Part shown: positions 3,424-52,542 of the stretch, piece by piece | How the letters are laid out: each line of letters opens with the position of its first letter | How positions within the stretch are numbered: the stretch's first letter is position 1 | DNA from: Amanita rubescens | Taxonomy: Eukaryota; Basidiomycota; Agaricomycetes; Agaricales; Amanitaceae | Assembly (NCBI GenBank): GCA_015039365.1 | Contig: WION01000155.1 | Coordinates: 1-64,000, forward strand | Reading direction: 5' to 3' | Length of the DNA stretch: 64,000 nt | The notes under the pieces: model-generated | What the model saw: only the letters and a program-made list of their open reading frames with translations | Database searches by the model: none | What the model was told of the DNA's origin: nothing | Position numbers and translations under genes: made by a program

Positions 3424-6400
3424 TCAACTTCCGCCGAGCATCCGGCCAAAACGTTTGGGAGGGGTTCCATGAGAACGCATAGTCCTCCATACATCCTCTG
3501 TTTTATCTCGCAACCCATTGTAGACCGCCTCTTCACCAAGACCAAAGCGAGAAACTTGAGCGACCGTTTTGCTATGTCTCCGGGTCATGTCAAGGATATG
3601 GTTTTGTAACTCCTCATGCCTCTTTAACGTCTTCAGGTTGCCCGACGCCTTCGCCCTCGACCGCGATTTGACCGAAACCCGGATAATGGATTCTGGTAGA
3701 TCGCCTGATGATGTCAACAACGATTCCTTGACGACTTCCACAACGCTCTTAACGATTTCATTCATCATCTCCTGACTTATAAGGTTTTCAGACGCTAAAG
3801 CCTGGCATATCATATCGGAGAGATCTTCCGGTAGATTTTCCAGCAATGAATCTGGGATATTCTTCAGGATCGATACGGGCAATCTTGCTAAAAGAGTCGT
3901 CGGGAGCCTCTCGAGTGTCACCCGTGGCAAATTCTGCAACAGCGAAGGAGGTAGATTGGCAAGGAGCTCTTGAGGCAGTCGCTCGAGGCATTGTGCTTGA
4001 AATCTGGCCATACACTTGGGCGGCAGCTTTCCAAGAGCTTTCGGCGGAATTGTTTTCAACCATGATATCGGGAATAAGGAAATCATGCATGGAAGCTGTT
4101 CAAGGACAAAGCGAGGTGTGACGGTCAGTGCCAATCCGAGGATGCTGAATTGAGCTTCTGCAATGGAAGTCGTCGATAGGTCGGTAGCCGTCCTTTCAAC
4201 AGGGGATTTCTCGGCCTCCGCCTCTAAAACAGCAGGCCCGAAGATTGGCGCCACGGCCGTGGAGATAGCCGGTGGCTCGGGAGAAACCGTTTTTTGAGAG
4301 CCGATTGGCATCGCCGAGGATCCACTTTCGCATTGATTACATTGCTCTTTTAATTGGTCTGGGAGGCGTTTTGGCAAGTCCTCGGGTAATCCTTGATCTG
4401 GATGATCAGGCGTGTCCTTGAACATGACCCGCATGCCCTGCAATACGATCCTAAGGTTTCCCTGAGCACTGCCCCCTAAATCTCCCTTCAGCGCGAACGA
4501 AATGACATTAGGAAGTTGCGCAGCCAAATTGTCATGGAGTAACTGTACGAATTCTTCTGGTGACTTCGAGGCTCGATCAGCAGGCAATTTAATAGGTGGA
4601 TCGTCTATCAAGTCATTGAGAACGCTCAGCATGCGCGCTAAAAGTTCAACAGGGAGATTTTCAAGGAGAGTGGGCGGAAGACTAGCGAGGAGTTCTTCGG
4701 GCAGTCTCTCGAGCACGGCAGAAGAGATACGTGCCAAGACTTCGGCAGGAAGTCGTTCAAGGAACGAAGGTGGTAATCTGACGAGAAGGTCGTTCGGCAA
4801 TCTCTCGAGCAAGGTTGTTGGGATGCGAGTTGATAAGCCGACTGGTAACCTTTCCAATAGAGACGATGGTAATCGGACGAGAAGTTCGTCCGGCAGCCTT
4901 TCGAGAACACTGACCGGAATACGTCCTAGCAGTTCCGCAGGCATTTTTTCAAGGAGATACGGAGGCAAAGCGGCAAGGAGGGGGTCGGGCAACCTCTCAA
5001 GGACGTCGATGGGAATTCGAGCCAAGAGCTCGGGTGGTAGACTGTCCAGGAGGGAGGCTGGTAGCCGGCCAAGGAGATCATTCGGCAACTTCTCTAGGAC
5101 GTGATTTGGTAACCTCGCGAGGAGATTACTTGGGAGTTTCTCAAGGACGCTCGCCGGAATACGGGCTAAGAGTTCCGGAGGAATAATCTCAAGTACGGAG
5201 TTCGGTAGTTGGCCCAGGAGGTAAGCAGGCAACCTCTCTATGACGCTGACTGGGATGCGAGCTAAGAGTTCGAGAGGGATAGACTCGAGTAAAGAACGAG
5301 GTAACCGAACAAGGAGATCGTCGGGTAACCTCTCCAGTACACTGATTGGAATCCGTTTCAAGCACTCTGGAGGCAATTTTTCAAGCAAGGAATGTGGTAA
5401 TCGGATGAGAAGGTCATCCGACAATCTTTCAAAGACGCTGGTGGGAATGCGGGCCAAGAGATCCGGAGGCAATTTTTCAAGTAAGGAGTGTGGTAGTCGA
5501 ACAAGCAGATCATCTGGCACCCTCTCTATTACGCTGACCGGAAGACGCGCCATAAATTCCGGAGACATCCGTTCGAGTAGAGAACATGGCAGCCGAACGA
5601 GAAGGTCATCTGGTAACCTCTCAATAACGCTAATGGGGATACGAGTCAGGACTTCCGCCGGCAAAGCCTCAAGTAGGGAGTGCGGCAGTCGGAGAAGAAG
5701 ATCGGCAGGTAACCTCTCCATTACGCTAACAGGAATACGCGCTATGAACTCTGGAGGCATTCGTTCCAGTAGAGATTGTGGTAATCGGGCGAAGAAATCG
5801 TCCGGTAACCTTTCCATAACGCTGACCGGAATACGCGATAAGAGTTCCGGCGGCATATTTTCCAGTAGCGCGGGCGGGAGATTGACGAGCAGTTCATCAG
5901 GGAGTTTCTCGATAATACTCTTTGGAATGCGCGCCAGAAGTTCCGGAGGTAATTGTGATAGGAGTTCTGGAGGCATATTGACAAGAATATCCTGTGGAAG
6001 TTTTTCAAGGACTCTCGCTGGAAGTCGAGCTAGAAGCTCTGGAGGTAAATTTGCGAGTAGCGACGGCGGAAGCCTGGAGAAGAGACGCTGCGGGAGTATG
6101 TCCCCGAGCCTGGACACCATCCTCCGAGGTAGTTCCTTCTGGAGTTCCTTGCTGACAGTTCTCTTCAAGACGCTTGCCACTGATTCTTCATAGCTGCGTC
6201 TGTAACGGGGCTCTGACAAATTCCGTTCGAGATTACCATGCCATAAAGTTGCTTGTATCGCGGCCATAACCCATTCGTTCGCGCCAGTTTTCACCGAATC
6301 GACAACCAAGCTTTCCAACCTTGAAGTGGTATCACGGATGACGTCCTTCATGATCGATTGAAGTTGATGCCAATGTTTTTGCTTTCGAACGAGTGTCTCC

Positions 6401-7426
6401 GCATCGGCTTTGACAATCGGCCAAAGCCTCTTTTCAAGGCTTGTAATTAACGCGGATCTCTGGGCCCGATCCAAAACAGCCCCGTTATTGCCGAAAATGT
6501 GCCTCGGGAAGGTCGATGCAGCTACGGTGTCCCACCTGATGCCTTCTAGAGACGCGAACTGCTGGAGCAAGTGATGACGGACTAGGAGAGCAACAATGGT
6601 GCGTGCGAGGAAGTAGCAGTTATACTGCTGCAACGTATAGTTTTTAGCTTGGTCGTCCATCTGAACACTGACGCAGATAGCGACAACAGTGTACAGATCG
6701 GGCTTCTTGTGTCCATTGAAGTCCACCGAAATCTGCACGTCTGCTTTCGATGCGATAGTTTCTCGTTGCTTCCTGTCAACGAGGGTTACACTGTCTTCGG
6801 CTTTGCACCCTTTCACAGTAACGGCGTCGGGATTCGCTCCTCCGAATGGCCTCCTGTCAAGGCGGTAAAGAGTTCCGCTTTCCAAATGGATTACGACAAA
6901 CTCGTGCTTGAAGTCGTCCCTTTCCTTCCAGAGTTCGATTCTGTGGATGGCGGTGCGATGGAGACTTCTGTACCAGTCAAAGATACCGCCCCTATCCCAG
7001 TCGTCGAAAGTTATCAGAACAGGAGCTGTTGCTCGCGAAGATGAGGTGGATAGGTATGAGATTCGATATGGTACAGCTCGCGCTGACGGGGAAACGAATG
7101 AGGGTCTGAAGGCAGACGGAAGTGCGCCTGATTTCCTTTTCGAGGGACTTCGGATCAGAGGGAGACTCGGACATCCCATTATTGGCCAGCGACTGCAATC
7201 GATAGTAAGACATTGCCATTATGCTGGACGGTGAACTTACGGAGAGTGATGGAGTTATGCCAACGGGGCGAACTCACGAGAGTTTTCCGTTTTCCTTCGG
7301 ACATATCAGCTCGCGGAACACATGAATATGATATTTGCCAAGGTTTGCTTCCACGATCTTCGACCCGCTTTGACCGCCTGGTCCCACGGGCGCTATATTT
7401 GACAATTCTCCCATGGGGGACGGCAT
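3424..7426 (-). CDS. large protein: permuted papain-like head plus LP-octapeptide repeat array
   Basis: Three exons, 7426-7278, 7223-7075 and 7025-3424, join in phase and give 1299 residues. The 5' exons use a canonical GTGAGT donor, so the protein starts before the ATG at 7179 that opens the main frame. Residues 100-250 hold FDDWDRGG, H140 in FKHEF, and N235-C236 in QQYNCYF. A His followed much later by an Asn-Cys pair is the arrangement of circularly permuted papain folds (LRAT/NlpC-P60/PPPDE type); that assignment is inference. From about residue 370 to 880 the chain is almost only octapeptides of the form hydrophobic-P-x-x-L-L-x-(R/K), with a shorter block near residues 1040-1120. The ends are charged and low in repeats. 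It lies downstream on the same strand as the nucleotidyltransferase. No named family is assigned. Confidence 0.75.
4630..6105 (-). repeat. 24-bp coding repeats (LP octapeptides, 96-bp superunit)
   Basis: About 60 octapeptide units run head to tail, e.g. LPPELLAR, IPVSVIER, LPDDLLVR, LPHSLLEK. These four types alternate in that order, making a 32-residue (96-bp) higher-order unit. Units differ by many substitutions, so the array is old and has been kept in frame. Confidence 0.85.
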
Positions 7427-11960: not shown

Positions 11961-13209
11961 GAGTTGTTCACAATCCGGTAGCCCTTGGTGACTCGATAAT
12001 CCTCGCATTCCTCTCCATCCTGGCGCCATTCACGTGCGCGTATACCACCGTTGTTCTGCAGAGGCTCGGTTTTTCTTTTCTCGTTCTTCGAGCGCGACGA
12101 AGCGGGCGCTTATAGTGGAGGGCTATTTTTCGCTTAACTGGATCCACCGCAGGTGGTACTCATCCCTGGGAGCTCGAGTCCCAAAAAGACAGGCATGTGC
12201 CTGCTGCACAATGAGGGTGATAATTGACATTGTGGGACGGCGAACGATATGACAGGCGAGCGGTGGCGTGATGGCGTGATGGCGTGATGGCGTTGATAAC
12301 CCAGCGCATGCGGGCTGGAGTATGTTTCAAGTAATGGAAGAGAGCGCTGCCTCTGAGAAGATGGGATTGGGAGCGATCAAGCGGGAAGTGGTCAAAGCGG
12401 AAAAAATATTGAAAACCTCGTTAATTCACAGGGCGCGCCGCTTTCTTGCTATCCATCTCTCTGCCTCAATTGGTCAGTACCGTGGGATTAAGCTGTGGGG
12501 GAATAGACTCAAGACTGATCCTTCCAGTAGTGAACCTCTCACACCCCTTTTGAGGAGAGGTCCAGCGATCTGACGTCCTGGTTATCAGCAAGTCTAAATA
12601 AGGGAGATCATCGATCAGTGATGATGATGTGAGTTTATACAACCTAATACAGAACACCGCTCAGCACCTGATGTCGCACATCGATATCGGTCGCTCACTG
12701 GCACACCTCCCGCGACGGTATACAGGACTCTCCTCCCACCAGGTCTGTTCTCTTCTTCCCAGCTTGCAAATACTGACCTTCCTCTCCCACACACCAGACC
12801 TTATCACACTTTCTGGGTTAGCACGAGCGAGTATTTTAAGTTCTTTGGCGCCCGCTCCGCAAGCTGCTCAGATTAGACATACTTTTTTAGGGTATAGAAA
12901 CGCACCAATGACAAGATACCTTGCGAGCCACAGCCTTGGGCGGGCCAGGTCAGGCCATGTCAACGCTCATGACCACATGGGCGCAACTCACACAAAGACT
13001 TCAGCGGCATTGGAACTTTGATTATCGATCTCACCCCTGGACCTTCGACTCCATCCCGACATCGACTTCGGTGACCCACTCGCTTGAAGTTACACTGAAA
13101 CTTGTTCTGTCGATCATCCATTTTACATTGTGCTTTCCTCCCTTCATCCTTCCACGTTTTAGGAAGGTGACCTCCTGCATTCGCCATGTCTTCTTCCCCA
13201 CCACGCCAA

Positions 13210-13660
13210 GAAGTTGGCGTAAGCTCTCGGGCTCCATCCCTTGATCTTCCTATGTACGTCACCACATCCGACACCCACTCACGGGCATCAGCTCAAACAA
13301 GGAGCCTTTGTCTGTAGGAATGGCGTACTTCATAAAGATAAGGATCACATATACGACCAAGAAGTTGGCATAAGCTCCCGGTCCCCATCCCCTTATGTTC
13401 CTAGGTACGTCATCACATCCGACCCCCACTCGCGGGCATGAGCTCAAACAAGGAGCCCTTTTCTGTAGGGATGGCATACTCGATAAAGATAAGGATCGCA
13501 TATACGACCAAGAAGTTGGCATAAGCTCCCGGGCCCCATCCCCTTATGTTCCTAGGTACGTCATCACATCCGACCCTCACTCGCGGGCATGAGCTCAAAC
13601 AAGGAGCCCTTTTCTGTAGGGATGGCATACTCGATAAAGATAAGGATCTCATATACGATA
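13210..13660 (+). repeat. 151-bp tandem repeat, three copies
   Basis: Units start at 13210, 13361 and 13512, exactly 151 bp apart. Each carries an ATG-TTC-CTA-GGT-like start (the first unit is diverged), a run of Lys/Asp codons and the word GAAGTTGGCATAAGCTC. Because 151 is not a multiple of 3, successive units shift frame. The last unit runs straight into the DUF2235 coding sequence. Confidence 0.85.
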
Positions 13661-23270: not shown

Positions 23271-23472
23271 TTATATGGCGCCTTGATATGAACCACTTGG
23301 GATAAACGGCTCTTATCCAAAGAGTATATTACGAAAACAATGAGGCTCTGCGGTGCTTGGATGACGTGGGAGAACTCTATAACGATCGCCTTCCATAAGG
23401 AGCGTTCTGAACTGAAGTGACGAGAAGCCTCGTGGATGGACCCGAAAGCTCTTATCTCCTCCCCTCATCGAT

Positions 23473-26400
23473 ATGGCTGACCAACGCCCGCCACAGACTG
23501 CCAAAGGGTCTAAAGGACTTTCCAATCGCCTGAAGAAGATGTTCGGACGGGGATCGCAGAGCACGCCCACTGCATCAACGATGACGACTGACCCCGAAGA
23601 AGCTGCGAAAACTGGATCAACGATGACGACCGACCTGGAAGAAGCTGCGAAAACTGCATTAACGATGACGACCGACCCGGAAGAAGCTGCGAAACTCCGG
23701 GCCAAGTACACCCACTTCCGTATCCTCGTTATCGGGAGGGCGAATGCCGGTAAAACGACGCTGCTGAAGCGGGTCTGCAATACGAAGGAGGATCCAGTTT
23801 ACAGCAAGGTATGATATCCGCTTCAATTGATACCTCACTTTCATCATCCCTTCCACCGACAGATTAACCCGACCTCGAAGGTGATCCTTGTGCATTTCTC
23901 TAGTTGAACCAGGTTGTTGACTTTGATGCTGTAGCGAGGGATTCATAATGTCCATGACGAGTTTTCATTTGAGAGAACCCACAGTTCATCTTCCATGACT
24001 CTCCTGGTTTTGAGGCAGGAGGCGAGCAGGAACTTCAGGACGTAGTCTCTTTCATACAAGAGAAGGCAAAAGCAAATGAAGTAAAGGACCAAATACACGC
24101 AATATGGTGAGTTTTATCCTTCCTTTATGTGGCGCAACTGACAATGTGTTCAGGTTTTGTTTTGCCCCGGACATATCTCGCCCGTTATTGGGATTGGAAC
24201 AGAGGTTCTTCAATGAGCAACAATGTGGCAATGGTAAGATCATTTAGAATCTCCAGACTCTTCACTGTGGCTGACCACAGACAGTTCCGGTTGTGGCAAT
24301 CTTCACGAAATTCGATGATCTCATCACCCAGGTCTATGATAGGAATGAAGATGATGAGAAGAATAGAGAAGTTGCTTGTGCTGCCTTGGAGAAGAAATTT
24401 GAGAAGCCACTTAAGGGTTACAAGTTTCCACCTTGCACATATGTGCGATTTGAATGTATGTCTCTTCACATTTAGTGACCAATCTTGGGACTTATAGCAT
24501 GCCCAGCTATCCAGGAGGATGAAGGTAATCATCAGGAACAAGTTGGGGAACTAATCAAACAGACAGCGTCATCAATTGATGACATGGCACTGAAGATGTT
24601 GTTTGTCACTGTCCAACAGAATAACCTAGAGGTCTGCATTGAATATGCATTGAACCAGTCTGTCATCCACTCATATGCTGTTCCTTCAACTCATCTCTCT
24701 ATGAGGTTTATCTTTGAGAATACCTCAACAGTGGTACATTTTTTCTTCAATTGTAGAGATTTGAGTGCTCAAATAAACAAAGGATAACTTGATTTACAGG
24801 GCTGCATCTTGGTTTGGACATTGCTATCAGCAGGTATGCAAATTGAATGCATTTTCTTGAGCCATGACTGAAACTGAGAAGGATTATGTGAGAGTCCACT
24901 TCTACTTGAGCAGGGAAGATGGTGATGACAGTTGTTTCAGGATGTAAGTATCATGACCAAATATTGGTGACAAAGTTTAATCTGGGTATTCAGTATGTGA
25001 GTATGACATTAAGCTCATTTGACAATATAATTATGCAAATGATAAGGGGGATGATGTGAGAATTTCAAAGTGATAGGAAGGTAACTTCTGAATGTCATGA
25101 ATAGGAGGTAATAAGCAAGTTACATGGAGAATTCCAAATTGATAGAAATGATTCACCTCATATCTAGAAGGTGAGCTGCTGTGTGCCTCCTTCACTTGAT
25201 TTAAATTGCTGACATGTTGCCATGAAATCCCATCCAGCGAGTGAGTGACTGTGTGCCTCCTAGCTCAATTTGAATTGCTGACATGTTGCCATGAAATCCC
25301 ATCCAGGCAGTGAGTAACTGTGTGTCTCCTAGCTCAATTTGAATTGCTGACATGTTGCCATGAAATCCCATCCAGGGAGTGAGTGACTGTGTGCCTCCTA
25401 GCTCAATTTGAATTGCTGACATGTTGCCATGAAATCCCATCCAGTTTGTGAGTGACTGTGTGCCTCCTAGCTCAATTTGAATTGCTGACATGTTGCCATG
25501 AAATCCCATCCAGGCAGTGAGTCACTGTGTGCCTCCTAGCTCAATTTGAATTGCTGACATGTTGCCATGAAATCCCATCCAGCAAGTGAGTGACTGTGTG
25601 CCTCCTAGCTCAATTTGAATTACTGACATGTTGCCATGAAATCCCATCCAGTATGTGAGTGACTGTGTGCCTCCTAGCTCAATTTGAATTGCTGACATGT
25701 TGCCATGAAATCCCATCCAGTATGTGAGTGACTGTGTGCCTCCTAGCTCAATTTGAATTGCTGACATGTTGCCATGAAATCCCATCCAGGGAGTGAGTGA
25801 CTGTGTGCCTCCTAGCTCAATTTGAATTGCTGACATGTTGCCATGAAATCCCATCCAGTTTGTGAGTGACTGTGTGCCTCCTAGCTCAATTTGAATTGCT
25901 GACATGTTGCCATGAAATCCCATCCAGGGAGTGAGTGACTGTGTGCCTCCTAGCTCAATTTGAATTGCTGACATGTTGCCATGAAATCCCATCCAGGGAG
26001 TGAGTGACTGTGTGCCTCCTAGCTCAATTTGAATTGCTGACATGTTGCCATGAAATCCCATCCAGCGAGTGAGTGACTGTGTGCCTCCTAGCTCAATTTG
26101 AATTGCTGACATGTTGCCATGAAATCCCATCCAGGCAGTGAGTGACTGTGTGCCTCCTAGCTCAATTTGAATTGCTGACATGTTGCCATGAAATCCCATC
26201 CAGGCAGTGAGTGACTGTGTGCGTCCTAGCTCAATTTGAATTGCTGACATGTTGCCATGAAATCCCATCCAGGCAGTGAGTGACTGTGTGCCTCCTAGCT
26301 CAATTTGAATTGCTGACATGTTGCCATGAAATCCCATCCAGGCAGTGAGTCGCTGTGTGCCTCCTAGCTCAATTTGAATTCCTAACATTTGTTTAGTTTG

Positions 26401-26917
26401 TACCTGTCTTCTCCCATCCATTCTCCTTGCCCTACTCCATTAATACTAGGCCTACATTTCACAGGTAAACAATGTTCAGGGTCTTGTGAAAACTCAATTC
26501 AATGTAAGGTCATATTTCCTTCTTTCATTCCCTTCACTCAAGTATTCCCAATTACATAGGCACCTTCTTTGCACTGTCTCTTTGGTCTGATTAATCCTAC
26601 CCTTTCTATATTTGCAGTTTCTTACCATTACATGGACAGCCATCCTTATTTGTCTTGAACATTCCTTTTGGATTGTCCAGCAAGGCTGCAATTCCACTGA
26701 TGGCTTCACCAAGGCCTGGAAACTTTATCTGAAGACCCAGCATGCACTGGTTGAACAAGAAGTGGATCACTACTTGAGGTCAAAGGACATCGGTGATTGG
26801 TTCACCATCAAACATCACCCATCTGATGAAGAGTGTGCTGAATTCAGGAAAATAGTTCTTAACAATTTATTATGTAACTCAGTCCCTGTCTTCTTTGAGC
26901 TGGAATTGCTGATATAG
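23473..26917 (+). CDS. P-loop GTPase (fungal IMAP/MMR_HSR1-like family) with CpG-free 3' half
   Basis: The ATG at 23473 opens a Lys-rich leader with three 14-residue repeats, then FRILVIGRANAGKTTLL (G1), FIFHDSPGFEAGG (G3) and VAIFTKFDDL (G4). KMLFVTVQQNNLEVCIEYA follows, as in the large Agaricomycete GTPase family. The C-terminal exons, 26480-26503 and from 26618, read GLVKTQFN joined in phase to FLTITWTAILICLEHSFW and fit the family's helical tail. Between 24830 and 26480 lies a region of very short exons and the 17-unit intron-like array. One lesion is possible: between RGIHNVHDEFSFERTH and FIFHDSPG (near 23983) the frame shifts by one base unless a 35-nt intron is used. Expression and full splicing are unproven; the end is taken at the TAG at 26915. 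Confidence 0.6.
23578..23703 (+). repeat. 42-bp coding repeat, three copies
   Basis: Three in-frame 14-codon units reading TMTTDxEEAAK plus three variable residues. They lie in the N-terminal leader of the GTPase, before the G1 motif, and so are likely a flexible spacer. Confidence 0.85.
25171..26396 (+). repeat. 17-unit, 69-bp array: tandem introns with 3-nt hypervariable exons (candidate)
   Basis: Each unit reads, on the GTPase strand, GTGAGT donor, then CTGAC about 25 nt before a CCATCCAG acceptor, then three bases, then the next GTGAGT. The intron part is 66 nt, a normal size here. The triplets lie at 25238 + 69(k-1) for k = 1-17: GCA six times, GGA four, CGA, TTT and TAT twice each, CAA once. 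Donor, CTGAC and acceptor are unchanged in all 17 units, while the triplet is the main variable site. The unit before the array (25171-25237) has the same ends but a different middle and could be the parent intron. The last unit ends with CCTAAC and TTGTTTAG instead. The opposite strand has a 23-codon open frame per unit, which I rate less likely to be real coding. Confidence 0.7.
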
Positions 26918-27036
26918 TATATTCAGCACATCCTAGTAAAACCTCCACTCAATGATGGCATGTCAACTTGCCCCTAGTATCTTCAGCACATCCTAGTAAA
27001 ACCTCCACTCAATGGCATGTCAACTTGCCCTAGTAT
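26916..27036. repeat. tandem duplication of about 56-60 bp, two copies
   Basis: The word TTCAGCACATCCTAGTAAAA and the following 30 bases occur twice, at about 26923 and 26981, right behind the GTPase stop. Confidence 0.8.
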
Positions 27037-47419: not shown

Positions 47420-50400
47420 TTAGCTAGGTATGTAACAACGAGCCCAATCACGACCAATCTTGCAATCTTGGAAGTTAATCAAGGCAGACCCTTGGCGGGA
47501 AATGGTGATGATGCTATATGGATAAGCCATCTCTGGCACCCACATGAGCGGATAACCACCAAGGACCGAATAGATCCAGCCTGTTTTGGTATCATTAATC
47601 CAAGCGGGGTAAGTACGACCCACAATGTACAACTGTGCAGATTCTTCCTCTAAGGTAATGGGGGTGCTATCGGTTGTTGGGGAGGTAATGGAATTGACTG
47701 AATGTGTGCGAAAATTAGGCACCACAGTCTCAGCCTCAGTTGAGGCATCCCACACCCGCACAGAGCCGTCTTTTGAGCCGGAGACGATGCGCGCGCCGTC
47801 AGCGGAGAAAGCTACGGAACAGATGCTATAGGTGTGACCATTGAGCACCTTCAGCTGAGCCCCAGTCGAGGCATTCCACACTCGCACAGACTTGTCAAGT
47901 GAGCCGGAGACAATGCGTGTGCTGTCAGCAGAGAAGGCGATTGAAAATACGACATTTGTGTGACCATTGAGCACCTTCAGCGTAGCTCCAGTCGAGGCAT
48001 CCCACACCCGCACGGACTTGTCGTCTGAGCCGGAGGCGATGCGTGTGCCATCAGAAGAGAAGGCGACGGATTTCACGGTCCTAGTGTGGCCATTGAACAC
48101 CTTCAGCAAAGCCCCAGTCGAGGCATCCCGCACCCGTACTGAGTTATCGTGTGAGCCAGATACAATGCGTGTGCCGTCAGCGGAGAAGGCGATGGAATAG
48201 ATGGCCACAGCCGGACCAGTCGAATCATCCCACACCCACACAGACAAGTCATATGAGCCAGAGACAATGCGCGTGCCGTCAGCAGAGAAGGAGGCGGAAC
48301 TGACCCAGTGTGTGTGGCCATTGAGCGCCTTCAGCGAGCCTGCCCCAGCTGCCGAAGCATCCCATGGCACCCGCACAGACCTGTCGTCTGAGCCGGGGAC
48401 AATGCGTGTGTCATCAGCGCAGAAGGCCACGGAACAGATGTTACGGGTGTGGCCATTGAGCACCTTTAGCTCAGCCCCAGTCGAGGCATCCCACACCCGC
48501 ACAGACTTGTCGAATGAGCCAGAGACGATGCGTGTGCCGTCAGCAGAGAACGCGACCGAATAGACATCCTCTGTGTGGCCATTGAGCACTTCCAGCTCCC
48601 CAGTCGAGGCATCCCATACCCGCACAGATTTGTCGGATGAACCGGAGATGATGCGTGTGCCATCAGCAGAGAAGGCGACAGAATGGACAGTGTTGGTGTG
48701 GCCATTGAGCACTCTGAGCTCGGCCCCGGTCGAGGCATCCCACACCCGCACTGAGTTGTCATACGAGCCAGAGACGATGCGCGTGCCGTCAGCGGAGAAG
48801 GCGACGGAAGTGACGGTCTCGGTGTGGCCATGGAGCACCTTCAGTTCAGCCCCAGTCGAGGCATCCCACACCCGCACTGAGTTGTCGTGTGAGCCGGAGA
48901 CGATGCGCGTGCCGTCAGCTGAGAAGCCTACAGAACAGATGCTACGTGTATGACCATCGAGCACCTTCAGCTCAACCCCAGTCAAGGCATCCCACACTCG
49001 CACAAAACAGTCTTCTGAGCCGGAGATGATGCGTGTGCCATCAGCAGAGGAGGCGACGGAATAGATGGTCTCGGTGTGGCCCTTGAACACCTTCAGCATA
49101 GCCCCAGTCGAGGCATCCCACACCCGCACAGACTTGTCGAATGAACCGGAGATAATGCGTGCCGTGCCGTCAGCAGAGAAGGCAACGGAATAGATGGTCG
49201 CTGTGTGGCCATTGAGCACCTTCAGCTGAGCCCCGGTCGAGGCATCCCACACCCGCACAGACTTGTCGTATGAGCCAGAGGCAATGCGCATCCCGTCAGC
49301 AGAGAAGGCGACGGATTTGATGCCTTTGGTGTGGCCATTGAGCACCTTCAGCTCGGCCCCAGTCGAGGCGTCCCACACCCGTACAGACCCATCATCTGAG
49401 CCGGAGACGATGCGCATACCATCAGCAGAGAAGGCGACAGATTGATTGGCACTTCCGGTTTGTATAACCATCAGTGGCATATAACTCGCCTTCCTATGAG
49501 CGAAGGAAGGGATGCGAGGGAACTGCTCTTTCCATCGTTGAGAGAGAGCGGACCCAGTTGACCAGGTTGCCAACGCTGAGATGTACAAGTGCGGTGTAGA
49601 CAGAGCCGGTGGATTTGCAGTGAAATAGGTAGTGAAATTGGCCGCTTCAGTAATGTTAGCGGCAAGCTCGGATCGCCTGCTCGCGTTCTGACTGACCAGC
49701 GTTAGAAACTGTGCATCCGAAGTGATAATATTCTGACCTTCAAGACCCACCTGCGCGCAGATTGAAGCATTGTGGTACACTGACCGCTGGATCCAAGCAG
49801 GTTCATGGTTTCGATCCAGAAGAGAATGCGGATACGCAGAAAGTCTGTGATACAATCGCCGAGATCCTTGTGATCGACCTTCGCTTCATCGGTCAGGGCC
49901 AAATGATGAGCCCAGTGCCGAGAGGCGTACCTCAGGAAGGCTTCGATATTGTTGTCGACCCGCTGTGTCAGCTTTGGGTCCTCAGCATCAAGTACAAACG
50001 ACGATGGCAGGTCACCGATATTGAAACGCAGCGATGTCATAACATTGAAGCAACATTGTGTGAGAAGAGCATGGTGGTGGGCCTTGCTCGACATGGAAAT
50101 CTGACGACCGTCGAGTTCGAATTGTGTCTGACCGAAGATGAAGTCGGGAAATGAAGCGTGGTACCAAAGGACCTGGTCATTTTTGCAATAGAGAACTGCG
50201 TAAAGTTTGTCCAAGACAGCGCTCGCAGTTTTATCAGATTCCGAGAGGAGGGCAGCAGCCAGGGATGTCGATGTGCGTTCAAATGTACAGAGGAAGGTGT
50301 AGAGGATACGCAGACGAGAGTCAACGAGGTCGTCGTCAAAGCCGCAAAAGGCGTCACGCAGGATCTGCTGGTATAGCTCGTCAATGAGTAATGGTCGCCG

Positions 50401-52542
50401 TGCACCGCTCGCTGAAAGTGATTGCCGGACATGCAGCTTGCTCAGTAGTTTGCACTGCTCATCTAATGTGACCGATGGATCTGGTGTCAAATACCTCGCG
50501 ATAGTTGCGGCGGAAATAAAAAGACCGTCAGACAGCTGTGCCACGGTCTTTAGCTCTGGCCTGCCCGCGAAATTCGGAAGCTTGACATGCAGGTACTTGG
50601 TGATGTCTGATCCTACATGCTCATTCGGCACATCTTGCAGGCGACAGACGGCGTTGGACGGGAAAGACTTGCAGAGTTCGACGACACGAGGGTCTGGTCG
50701 GCTTGTGACAAGAAACTTGAGTCCTCGTAGGTGACGTCGGCTGATTGTCTTGAGTATGTCTTGAAGAAACATGGATCCTCCAGCGGCCTCGATCTCGTCC
50801 AATGCATCAACGATGATGAGGTAAGGTGGGAGCTCCGCATGACGTTCAGACTTCTGCCATGGACCAACGAGGAGGTCTTCCATCTGCTCGGTCAACTTGT
50901 CGACCGAATCGAACTTGTCCCATTCACTCAAAACGTGGGCGTACGATCTGGACTTTCGAGCGAGCTGGTATACAAGGGTGGGAATGATACGGATTTGTCG
51001 TCTTGTCTCTTCAAATTGGCGGGAGCAAAAAAAGTTGCCGCCCAAGACGGTGTGTCGTCCAGTATATTCTTCCTTCTCTAACCTGTCGAAGTATTGGGCG
51101 ATGGTATATGCGATGGTCGTCTTGCCGGAGCCAGCTTGGCCGGTCAGCCAGAAGACAGGCGGGCTATTCGCCGAGTCGGCCCATGTGATTATATCCTTTA
51201 GAATCTGCTCGCGCGTGTCTTTCGTGCATGGTTCACGGGTCACTGTCGCCCCGGCCCCCAAGTCAGCGTTGTAGATTGCCTTCCGAGCACGAATACGGTC
51301 AAGCTGCATTATCTGATGGAGATCAGTGCTTGTCCTAGCAGAAGATTTTGATATTTACCGTGATTTCAGAGAGTATAACATTGACCTGTCTCTCGATGGC
51401 CCAGGTGATGTCCAGCTGGATGCGATGGATAAGCTAGTTGGTAATCTGATAGGAGGTTATGTTCACCTGGAAAGTCTTCGTAGCTTCATCAATCCGTTCA
51501 AATATGTCCTCTATGTCCTTCCTGTCCGCTACGTTCTCCAGTATTCGTACAAGCGTCGATTTCGACGCCATTTGCTCTAACCTGCGGATTTCATGCCGCA
51601 GGACCCTGCAAGCACATTGGTTATTGTCTCTGATTTTGGTAAGCGGATGGCTTACCCAGCGAAGGCCTTCATTCGTGGCTTTGCAGAGTCGGGGATACCT
51701 TCGTCCACTACCTGATCCACGACGAGGAGTCTTTCGGCAACCTGAACGACGAGTTTTTCGATAGCACCCTTGTTGTCTTTAACCGTCTGAAGCAGGGAAT
51801 CAGTAAGTTTGTCGTCCACTGAGACTAACAATGTACATTTTTTATGTCGATTATGGCATTAACGGCGGCAACAGGGGCCTTTGCCAGAGTTCCACCAAGA
51901 CATCCCTCGACCTTCTTGAGCAACATTTCCATACCAGTCCAAGCGACTGCGAGTATATCTTTGGCTGTCCCCGCCGAAGGTGCATCGGGAAGAGTTGAAG
52001 ATCTGCTTCTTGAGGTATCGGGTGTGGGAGAGAGGGGTGTTGAACTACATGGGGTAGGATTACATAGGGTATGAGTCGAAGTAGGGCTGGTTTCGCCGTC
52101 GTACCCTTTGAGACGTGTCCGAGGTCAATACGCTCAGACGCAAAGATTCGGCATATTGTAATCTTACCTTGACCCACGGTGGAACCCCACATATCTGGAA
52201 CACATGATGCGGACTTGAAGGGGGTGGTAGAGTCTGGATGGTGGGGAGTCTGTTAGATGTGTGAGGTAGGAGTACGGCCCACATACCCTGATGCGAGGTA
52301 GCATTACTACCTGGAGGGAGCTTGAGTCGTCGTGAAGCTGTCGGCTCTGGACTTCCTGCGTCTTTTCCTGGAACAATATCGTGCGTGCCAGAAACCCGCG
52401 TGGAATTTAGCTGGCCAGAAGAGGCGTCGTCTGATTTGGGTCGCTTAATCTGATCTATCCGATCTCGAAAGAGATTTACTATGCTTCCGCTTTTCTTCGA
52501 TTTCTTTGCTGAAGTGGACCGGGATCCGTCACGGTCGTCCAT
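47420..52542 (-). CDS. NLR-type STAND protein: helical N-domain, NACHT, 14 WD40 repeats
   Basis: Several exons. It starts MDDRDGSRSTSAKKSKK, then a Ser/Pro linker, then a helical domain (AVAWTGMEMLLKKVEG, APVAAVNAIIDI, EKLVVQVAERLL, EIRRLEQMASKS) of the type seen ahead of NACHT in mushroom NLRs. NACHT: Walker A GQAGSGKTT, Walker B LIIVDALDE, then FLVTSRPDP and LFISAATIARYL. An intron with acceptor CAGTCAG joins WVLK to NASRRSEL and the WD40 frame. Fourteen WD40 repeats of 42 residues (SVAFSADGTRIVSGSxDxSVRVWDASTG type) follow, then LMWVPEMAYPYS and a tail to 47420. Family knowledge: fungal NACHT-WD40 proteins include incompatibility and immune receptors, with ligands read by the variable repeats. 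The ligand here is unknown. Confidence 0.85.
47690..49450 (-). repeat. 14 near-identical WD40 coding repeats (126 bp each)
   Basis: Repeats differ mainly at a few positions per blade, e.g. the residue between SGS and D, and the residues after NGHT. Three are odd: repeat 3 has one extra Ala (GTARI), repeat 9 reads RVPWDASAAGAGSL, and repeat 10 lacks its last strand and the NGHT segment. Confidence 0.85.

Follow-up and report, generated by a model that had tools for sequence, protein, structure and literature searches.

Candidate one-codon exons between near-identical introns at a hypervariable site of a GTPase gene family in Amanita rubescens

Near-identical repeat units with a few hypervariable codon positions are familiar from the zinc fingers of PRDM9, introner elements place many near-identical introns in a single genome, and Iotti et al. 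(2012) are said to have described arrays of codon-sized microexons in nank genes of Tuber melanosporum. In the available parts of three papers, the truffle nank (NACHT-ANK) genes contain tens of codon-sized, 3-bp microexons that are alternatively spliced; the gene family is expanded in this ectomycorrhizal fungus, and the arrays are proposed to diversify a sensor domain (PMC3689799, PMC4986451, PMC10197012). The portion of the source dealing with HNWD-type NLR genes of Podospora describes repeat units that are near-identical within and between paralogs and that vary at few codon positions (PMC4986451). As far as the available text goes, HYP effectors of potato cyst nematodes carry a hypervariable in-frame string between conserved flanks, composed by rules from a fixed motif set (PMC11228951), and the micro-exon genes of Schistosoma, in the part of the source consulted, have many exons of 3-81 bp, introns of up to 5 kbp and secreted protein products (PMC10526429).

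The locus described here lies in a window of 64,000 nucleotides, the whole stretch of Amanita DNA that was analysed, and like the truffle genes it presents runs of consecutive in-frame 3-bp exons, here predicted from sequence. The hosts differ, being NACHT-ANK genes in the truffle and a stand-alone, possibly IRG-like MMR_HSR1 GTPase in a basidiomycete here; moreover, Amanita paralogs already differ from one another at the DNA level and the intron scaffold is homogenised between loci. As with HNWD and PRDM9, the Amanita units are near-identical within and between paralogs and vary at set positions, but the conserved backbone is protein in those systems, whereas in Amanita it is intron and only the variable codon would be translated. 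Many near-identical introns are also a trait of introners; the Amanita copies compared are arranged in tandem at a single position in a single gene family. Unlike Schistosoma micro-exon genes they have introns of 50-79 nt (66 nt as a rule in homogenised arrays) and a GTPase host. The HYP variable domain is described as a single exon (PMC11228951), whereas each Amanita codon would be its own exon. The sequence-only reading of the locus had supposed that no gene of this kind was described, which the truffle reports contradict even in the parts available (PMC3689799, PMC4986451, PMC10197012). Codon-sized exon arrays are thus already known, and what would be new is their presence in another phylum and another gene family, on an intron scaffold homogenised between loci; a literature search, with most subscription papers outside its scope, found no report of one-codon exon arrays in basidiomycetes or in GTPase genes.

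We consider it likely that the triplets of the array are one-codon exons of a G-domain GTPase gene and that they are spliced into a hypervariable peptide; recombination between the introns may reshuffle them in frame. Each 66-nt unit would be a functional spliceosomal intron and each triplet a complete one-codon exon in phase 0, and splicing of all units would yield the low-complexity peptide RAGFAQYYGFGGRAAAA between an acidic motif, DYDYGDDEK, and a C-terminal helical part. Unequal recombination or conversion between near-identical introns, within or between loci, would add, remove or swap whole codons with the frame intact, and selection would keep different strings in different copies.

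TRF placed a single array at 25171-26388 (period 69, 17.6 copies, 95% matches), and its head-to-tail 69-bp units have the form of a minisatellite. The homogenised array as we draw it occupies 25171..26344 on the plus strand and is built of 17 introns, 66-67 nt long (GTGAG...CTGAC...CCATCCAG), with a 3-nt exon after each. These triplets lie at 25238 + 69k (k = 0 to 16) in the order CGA GCA GGA TTT GCA CAA TAT TAT GGA TTT GGA GGA CGA GCA GCA GCA GCA, using exactly the six values first reported (GCA, GGA, CGA, TTT, TAT and CAA). The array had been set at 17 units of 69 bp from 25171 to 26396; the period and the 17 triplets hold, but the last unit becomes a longer intron of 120 nt (26345..26464, plus strand, delimited by acceptor and frame), with a unit-like start, GTGAGTCGCTG, and the end TTTCACAG. 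It keeps its donor and lacks CTGAC and CCATCCAG, and the first intron, 67 nt long where 66 nt is the rule, has the donor GTGAGC, so the motifs GTGAGT, CTGAC and CCATCCAG are as described without being invariant in every unit. Position 25171 stands as the start of the homogenised units, but short-exon structure begins already at 24882.

A chain finder with slot length left free (1-14 nt), applied in the same form to shuffles and control DNA, returned 20 introns in 23401-27000, with 18 of the 19 slots 3 nt long. The reverse strand yielded a single intron, none of 60 order-1 shuffles more than 4, and none of the 24 tiles covering the rest of the window more than 3. The window array is not due to chance. 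A single-exon variable domain of the HYP type is excluded because the unit has stops in all three plus-strand frames. An ORF of 305 aa spanning the array on the minus strand was rejected as a gene; 69 is divisible by 3, and one open frame in six is expected. Other features of the window include a minus-strand ORF of 1264 aa (3424-7218) with many tandem repeats of the LPxxLLxRLPxSLLExLP type, for which Pfam gave only a sub-threshold Cornifin match; a 151-bp tandem repeat in 3 copies that are 92% alike (13206-13658); and, on the minus strand at 47420-51354, two ORFs, one of NACHT type and the other with 126-bp repeats and 14 WD40 stretches, which resemble HNWD-type NLR genes with homogenised repeats.

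The 5′ exons of the host gene, from MADQRPPQ... to ...AASWFGHCYQQ, span 23473..24833 on the plus strand and are separated by ordinary short introns, with exon ends placed by eye from homologs. The hand-assembled protein matches Pfam MMR_HSR1 (PF01926, E 3.2e-7), and neither NACHT nor ANK is among the 10 Pfam families listed for it. At about 24702, where 14 copies differ from the window copy by 2 bases, an intron is assumed because the models P0002, P0003 and P0005 splice there. The first exon contains a 42-bp tandem repeat in three copies (23569-23694) that encodes TMTTDPEEAAK-like units and shows gap differences among copies. According to homologs the gene continues as ...FENTSTV, DNLIYRAASWFGHCYQQ, the short exons, the array, VNNVQGLVKTQFN and FLTITWTAILICLEHSFW..., all in phase 0. 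Downstream of the array, the exon VNNVQGLVKTQFN (26465..26503, plus strand, phase 0) is placed by its frames and by alignment with TDGVHNGVSAHFN of the relative P0081, and the C-terminal exon, FLTITWTAILICLEHSFW... to the stop (26618..26917, plus strand), by homology.

Between the 5′ exons and the homogenised array lies a stretch of older short exons (24834..25170, plus strand) with introns of 48-60 nt, drawn from coordinates, paralogs and alignment to intron-free relatives. The predicted exons are GATTAT (24882-24887), GAT (24941-24943), TAT (24994-24996), GGGGATGAT (25047-25055), GAG (25105-25107) and AAG (25168-25170), and together they encode DY-D-Y-GDD-E-K, which aligns with a DYGKEEE-like motif directly before the variable stretch of the intron-free relatives. 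The strongest individual piece of evidence for translation of 3-nt exons here is this conserved motif spelled across them. This stretch is present in all 22 copies compared, with the last two exons absent from L026, L030, L032 and L034; two of its acceptors are AAG instead of YAG, which counts against the reading.

The genome compared, in which the window is contig C63, comprises 75.7 Mb in 786 contigs. The upstream flank occurs at 27 genomic places, the window included, and the downstream flank gave 27 rows, two of which are halves of one split copy. The 22 copies compared in detail (the window and L021-L041) all represent the same position in the same gene, and 21 of them have an array there of 8-42 slots. 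In the remaining copy, L040 (C114:42000-45000), several hundred bases of AT-rich DNA, perhaps a small transposon, break up the array and 1 slot was parsed. The first unit is shorter in L021-L023, L025, L027, L035, L036, L040 and L041, where part of ATGAAATCC before CCATCCAG is missing, as if it were a separate, older type of unit.

With the near-duplicates L022, L028 and L037 removed, 19 loci gave 457 parsed slots; the parser requires CCATCCAG with at most one change, and a few odd units were therefore fused with their neighbours. Slot length was 3 nt in 452, 6 nt in 2 and not a multiple of three in 3. The common triplets were GGA (135), GCA (75), CGA (63), CTT (55), TTT (52) and CAA (25), followed by GAA (15), GTT (14), AGA (12), TAT (4), TTA (1) and CCA (1), and no stop codon was found among these twelve kinds in the 19 loci. 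Against the 3 of 457 slots that are not a multiple of 3 stand 35 of 438 intron stretches, two merged pairs among them, that are not 66 nt; slot indels per base are not clearly rarer than intron indels in homogenised arrays, and the slot-length constraint there is uninformative taken alone.

The introns themselves are strongly conserved. When a unit was required to have GTGAG close to its core and CATCCAG with no more than one mismatch, 412 of the 416 units found by their core could be delimited. Of these 412 introns 309, from 18 of the 19 loci, match the consensus exactly, despite flank differences of up to 11-15%. GTGAGT and AG are present in all 412, though the delimiting demanded nearly those signals; among the four undelimited units, two are intact in both signals, the donor is altered in the one from L040, and the acceptor is lost in the last unit of L027. 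Change events numbered 1 at 13 signal sites versus 69 at 46 other sites (P 5.6e-7; treating the L040 donor as 3 events raises this to 1.1e-4). These P values are guides only, since the loci are related. Variation is concentrated in 3 of the 69 unit positions, with a per-base difference of 0.28-0.54 in slots (from GGA) as opposed to 0.0066 in introns (from consensus).

The strings change faster than the sequence around them. L033 matches the window upstream of the array at 99.5% with gaps counted and 99.8% of aligned bases, downstream at 99.75%, and farther out at 95-99%, and yet its string of 29 codons, RGLLGGGGALGRALAARRGGRLAAFGFLA, is unrelated to the 17-codon string of the window. The string of L028 equals that of the window, and L028 is possibly the other allele of this copy. 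The 18 distinct arrays differ in both string and length. These differences in the DNA bear on a variant of our reading, in which alternative splicing would skip or include single codons and produce many peptides per locus. Any subset of 3-nt exons preserves the frame, nearly identical donors and acceptors favour skipping, and variable inclusion is described, in the parts of the reports available, for the T. melanosporum nank genes (PMC3689799, PMC4986451, PMC10197012). Since strings already differ in DNA between copies, splicing is not the sole source of diversity; we regard variable inclusion as possible though rather unlikely, an estimate that overlaps with the one for the reading of which it is a variant.

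How the strings are rewritten is a related question. Of 438 pairs of neighbouring slots, 127 carry the same triplet (76 in shuffles), and a few blocks, GLLGGGG among them, turn up at more than one locus; both observations fit tandem duplication and exchange. The mean longest block common to two loci is 3.49, compared with 3.07 after shuffling; with shared blocks this small, the data support only in part the idea that recombination does the reshuffling. Triplet classes are not wholly separate lineages of units, since the linkage between intron variants and triplets is modest (MI 0.38 and 0.42 bits versus about 0.25 shuffled, sd 0.02). Alternatively, the coding architecture could be the same and a dedicated, targeted process could rewrite the slots in place of recombination plus selection. 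The use of only twelve triplets, the small number of triplets that bridge the NGA/NCA/NAA classes and the NTT class (a single TTA) and the identical intron adjoining all common triplets are in keeping with such a process, and programmed editing is proposed for the nematode HYP effectors in the text available (PMC11228951). The excess of like neighbours, as tandem duplication predicts, and the blocks common to several loci argue the other way, and we think a targeted process improbable.

Arrays of the same kind recur outside this subfamily. The pattern GTAAGT-intron-YAG-NNN-GTRAGT-intron-YAG-NNN-GTRAGT, which represents consecutive one-codon exons, has 607 matches in the genome and 0 in the reversed control. 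The 100 places listed of these 607 form 40 clusters, at least 26 of which have a same-strand G-domain match 1.1-3.2 kb upstream, with 0 and 0 in the opposite-strand and downstream controls; one of the 14 clusters without a listed match (C1:32.9k) is a GTPase by tblastn. By tblastn, two pattern regions on contig C1 are likewise GTPase genes; their arrays lie downstream of an FPH[YF]W motif, the counterpart of WFGHC in the window gene. Their diverged arrays, with introns of 50-79 nt, gave chains of 31 introns with 29 of 30 slots 3 nt long and of 34 introns with 32 of 33, versus at most 4 introns in 60 shuffles of each region. The reverse strands gave chains of 3 introns in region A and 10 in region B, and because of the latter we take repetitive arrays to inflate chains somewhat. 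The 67 slots compared from these other arrays use 20 triplets for 15 amino acids, a wider codon set than in the homogenised subfamily, and none is a stop (P 0.045, weak taken alone). Their third base is A or T in 63 of 67, compared with a GC3 of 0.51 in 303 host codons (P 2.4e-13); slots ending in G or C number 4 of 67 here and 0 of the 452 three-base slots of the homogenised subfamily. The usual base before a donor is G, and the one-codon exons show the opposite; we read the bias as a splicing constraint on the last exon base.

Homologs of the host protein occur across Agaricomycetes, with at least 120 matches listed. Contigs of 0.9-1.6 kb that lack the host-gene introns encode, at the position of the array, a peptide built from few kinds of residue, as in P0081, P0071 (GGLGGGRLGGRLGHLRLGLGGRGGGLGHLRLLK), P0139, P0142 and P0144. 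P0081 reads HDYGKEEE-ARGFAFAGFRRFAVGAGAGRFGAGADAF-TDGVHNGVSAHFN and shares the residues A, R, G, F and V with the Amanita triplets and also contains D. From the absence of introns we infer that these JGI contigs are transcripts; other JGI contigs, for example P0163, read through an intron and look genomic. A search with both flanks matched 23 of 185 proteins, and the lowest-entropy 18-mer of the whole protein falls within the linker in 14 of the 23 (13 of the 18 JGI proteins); in the other 9 of 23 the lowest-complexity stretch lies outside it, which counts against the reading.

These comparisons bear on the proposal that the region is one large or recursively spliced intron, in which a minisatellite grew from a seed of intron plus codon and the triplets are absent from the mRNA. 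The minisatellite form of the 69-bp repeat would suit it, and six Amanita gene models (P0001, P0002, P0003, P0005, P0006 and P0009) end ahead of the array. Nevertheless, 3-nt slots are preserved in diverged arrays despite introns of 50-79 nt, the upstream one-codon exons spell a conserved motif, relatives have a peptide at that site, and variation is confined mostly to 3 of 69 positions, so that we judge this explanation quite unlikely. A plain minisatellite, offered as an alternative in the sequence-only reading, is likewise a poor fit, since 3-nt slots persist where introns have diverged. The chain of short introns and putative one-codon exons on the host-gene strand that it favoured is strongly supported by the paralogs, the diverged arrays and the intron-free relatives.

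The window copy lacks one base at about 23976 relative to all 18 copies aligned there, which breaks the GTPase frame and marks either a pseudogene or an assembly error. That dead genes with collapsed or duplicated repeats account for the arrays, as this break, the DNA inserted in L040 and the three near-duplicate arrays (possible haplotigs) could suggest, is very improbable, given that exons 2-5 as drawn align without any gap apart from the missing base of the window (the 5′ part of L032 and L036 being not alignable), that 18 arrays are distinct in string and length, and that arrays with diverged introns recur genome-wide.

Returning to one-codon exons of a GTPase gene as the preferred reading, the array position in a structural model of a relative is a loop of low confidence, probably disordered, that connects two helices of a putatively IRG-like GTPase. 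The likeness to the IRG (Irga6) fold is at 10% identity, with Foldseek TM-scores of only about 0.4; a PDB sequence search contained no IRG chain at E 0.01, the solved relatives being just stretches of the GTPases Der and Arl3 (E 1.6e-4 and 7.7e-3). It is possible, as a tentative proposal, that more than 100 GTPase copies (alleles perhaps counted) with an immune-like fold form a repertoire system, many of them with a recognition loop encoded in 3-nt exons between recombinogenic introns that are homogenised across loci in this subfamily. Codons could then be gained, lost and swapped without frameshift, giving evolvable receptors, possibly for non-self, and the spliceosome would hide the recombination scaffold from the protein.

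If the reading is true, tens of consecutive 3-nt exons would be routinely joined across introns of roughly 60 nt. Present ideas of how exons are recognised would be strained by this, and the arrays would offer a natural system for the study of sequential or recursive splicing. A large GTPase family would, moreover, be diversifying its proteins one codon at a time without endangering the reading frame. Automatic gene models of the family stop at the array position. The mushroom arrays would extend the truffle nank case to another phylum and to a host gene of unrelated kind, and the two together suggest that codon-sized exon arrays may be a recurrent fungal solution.
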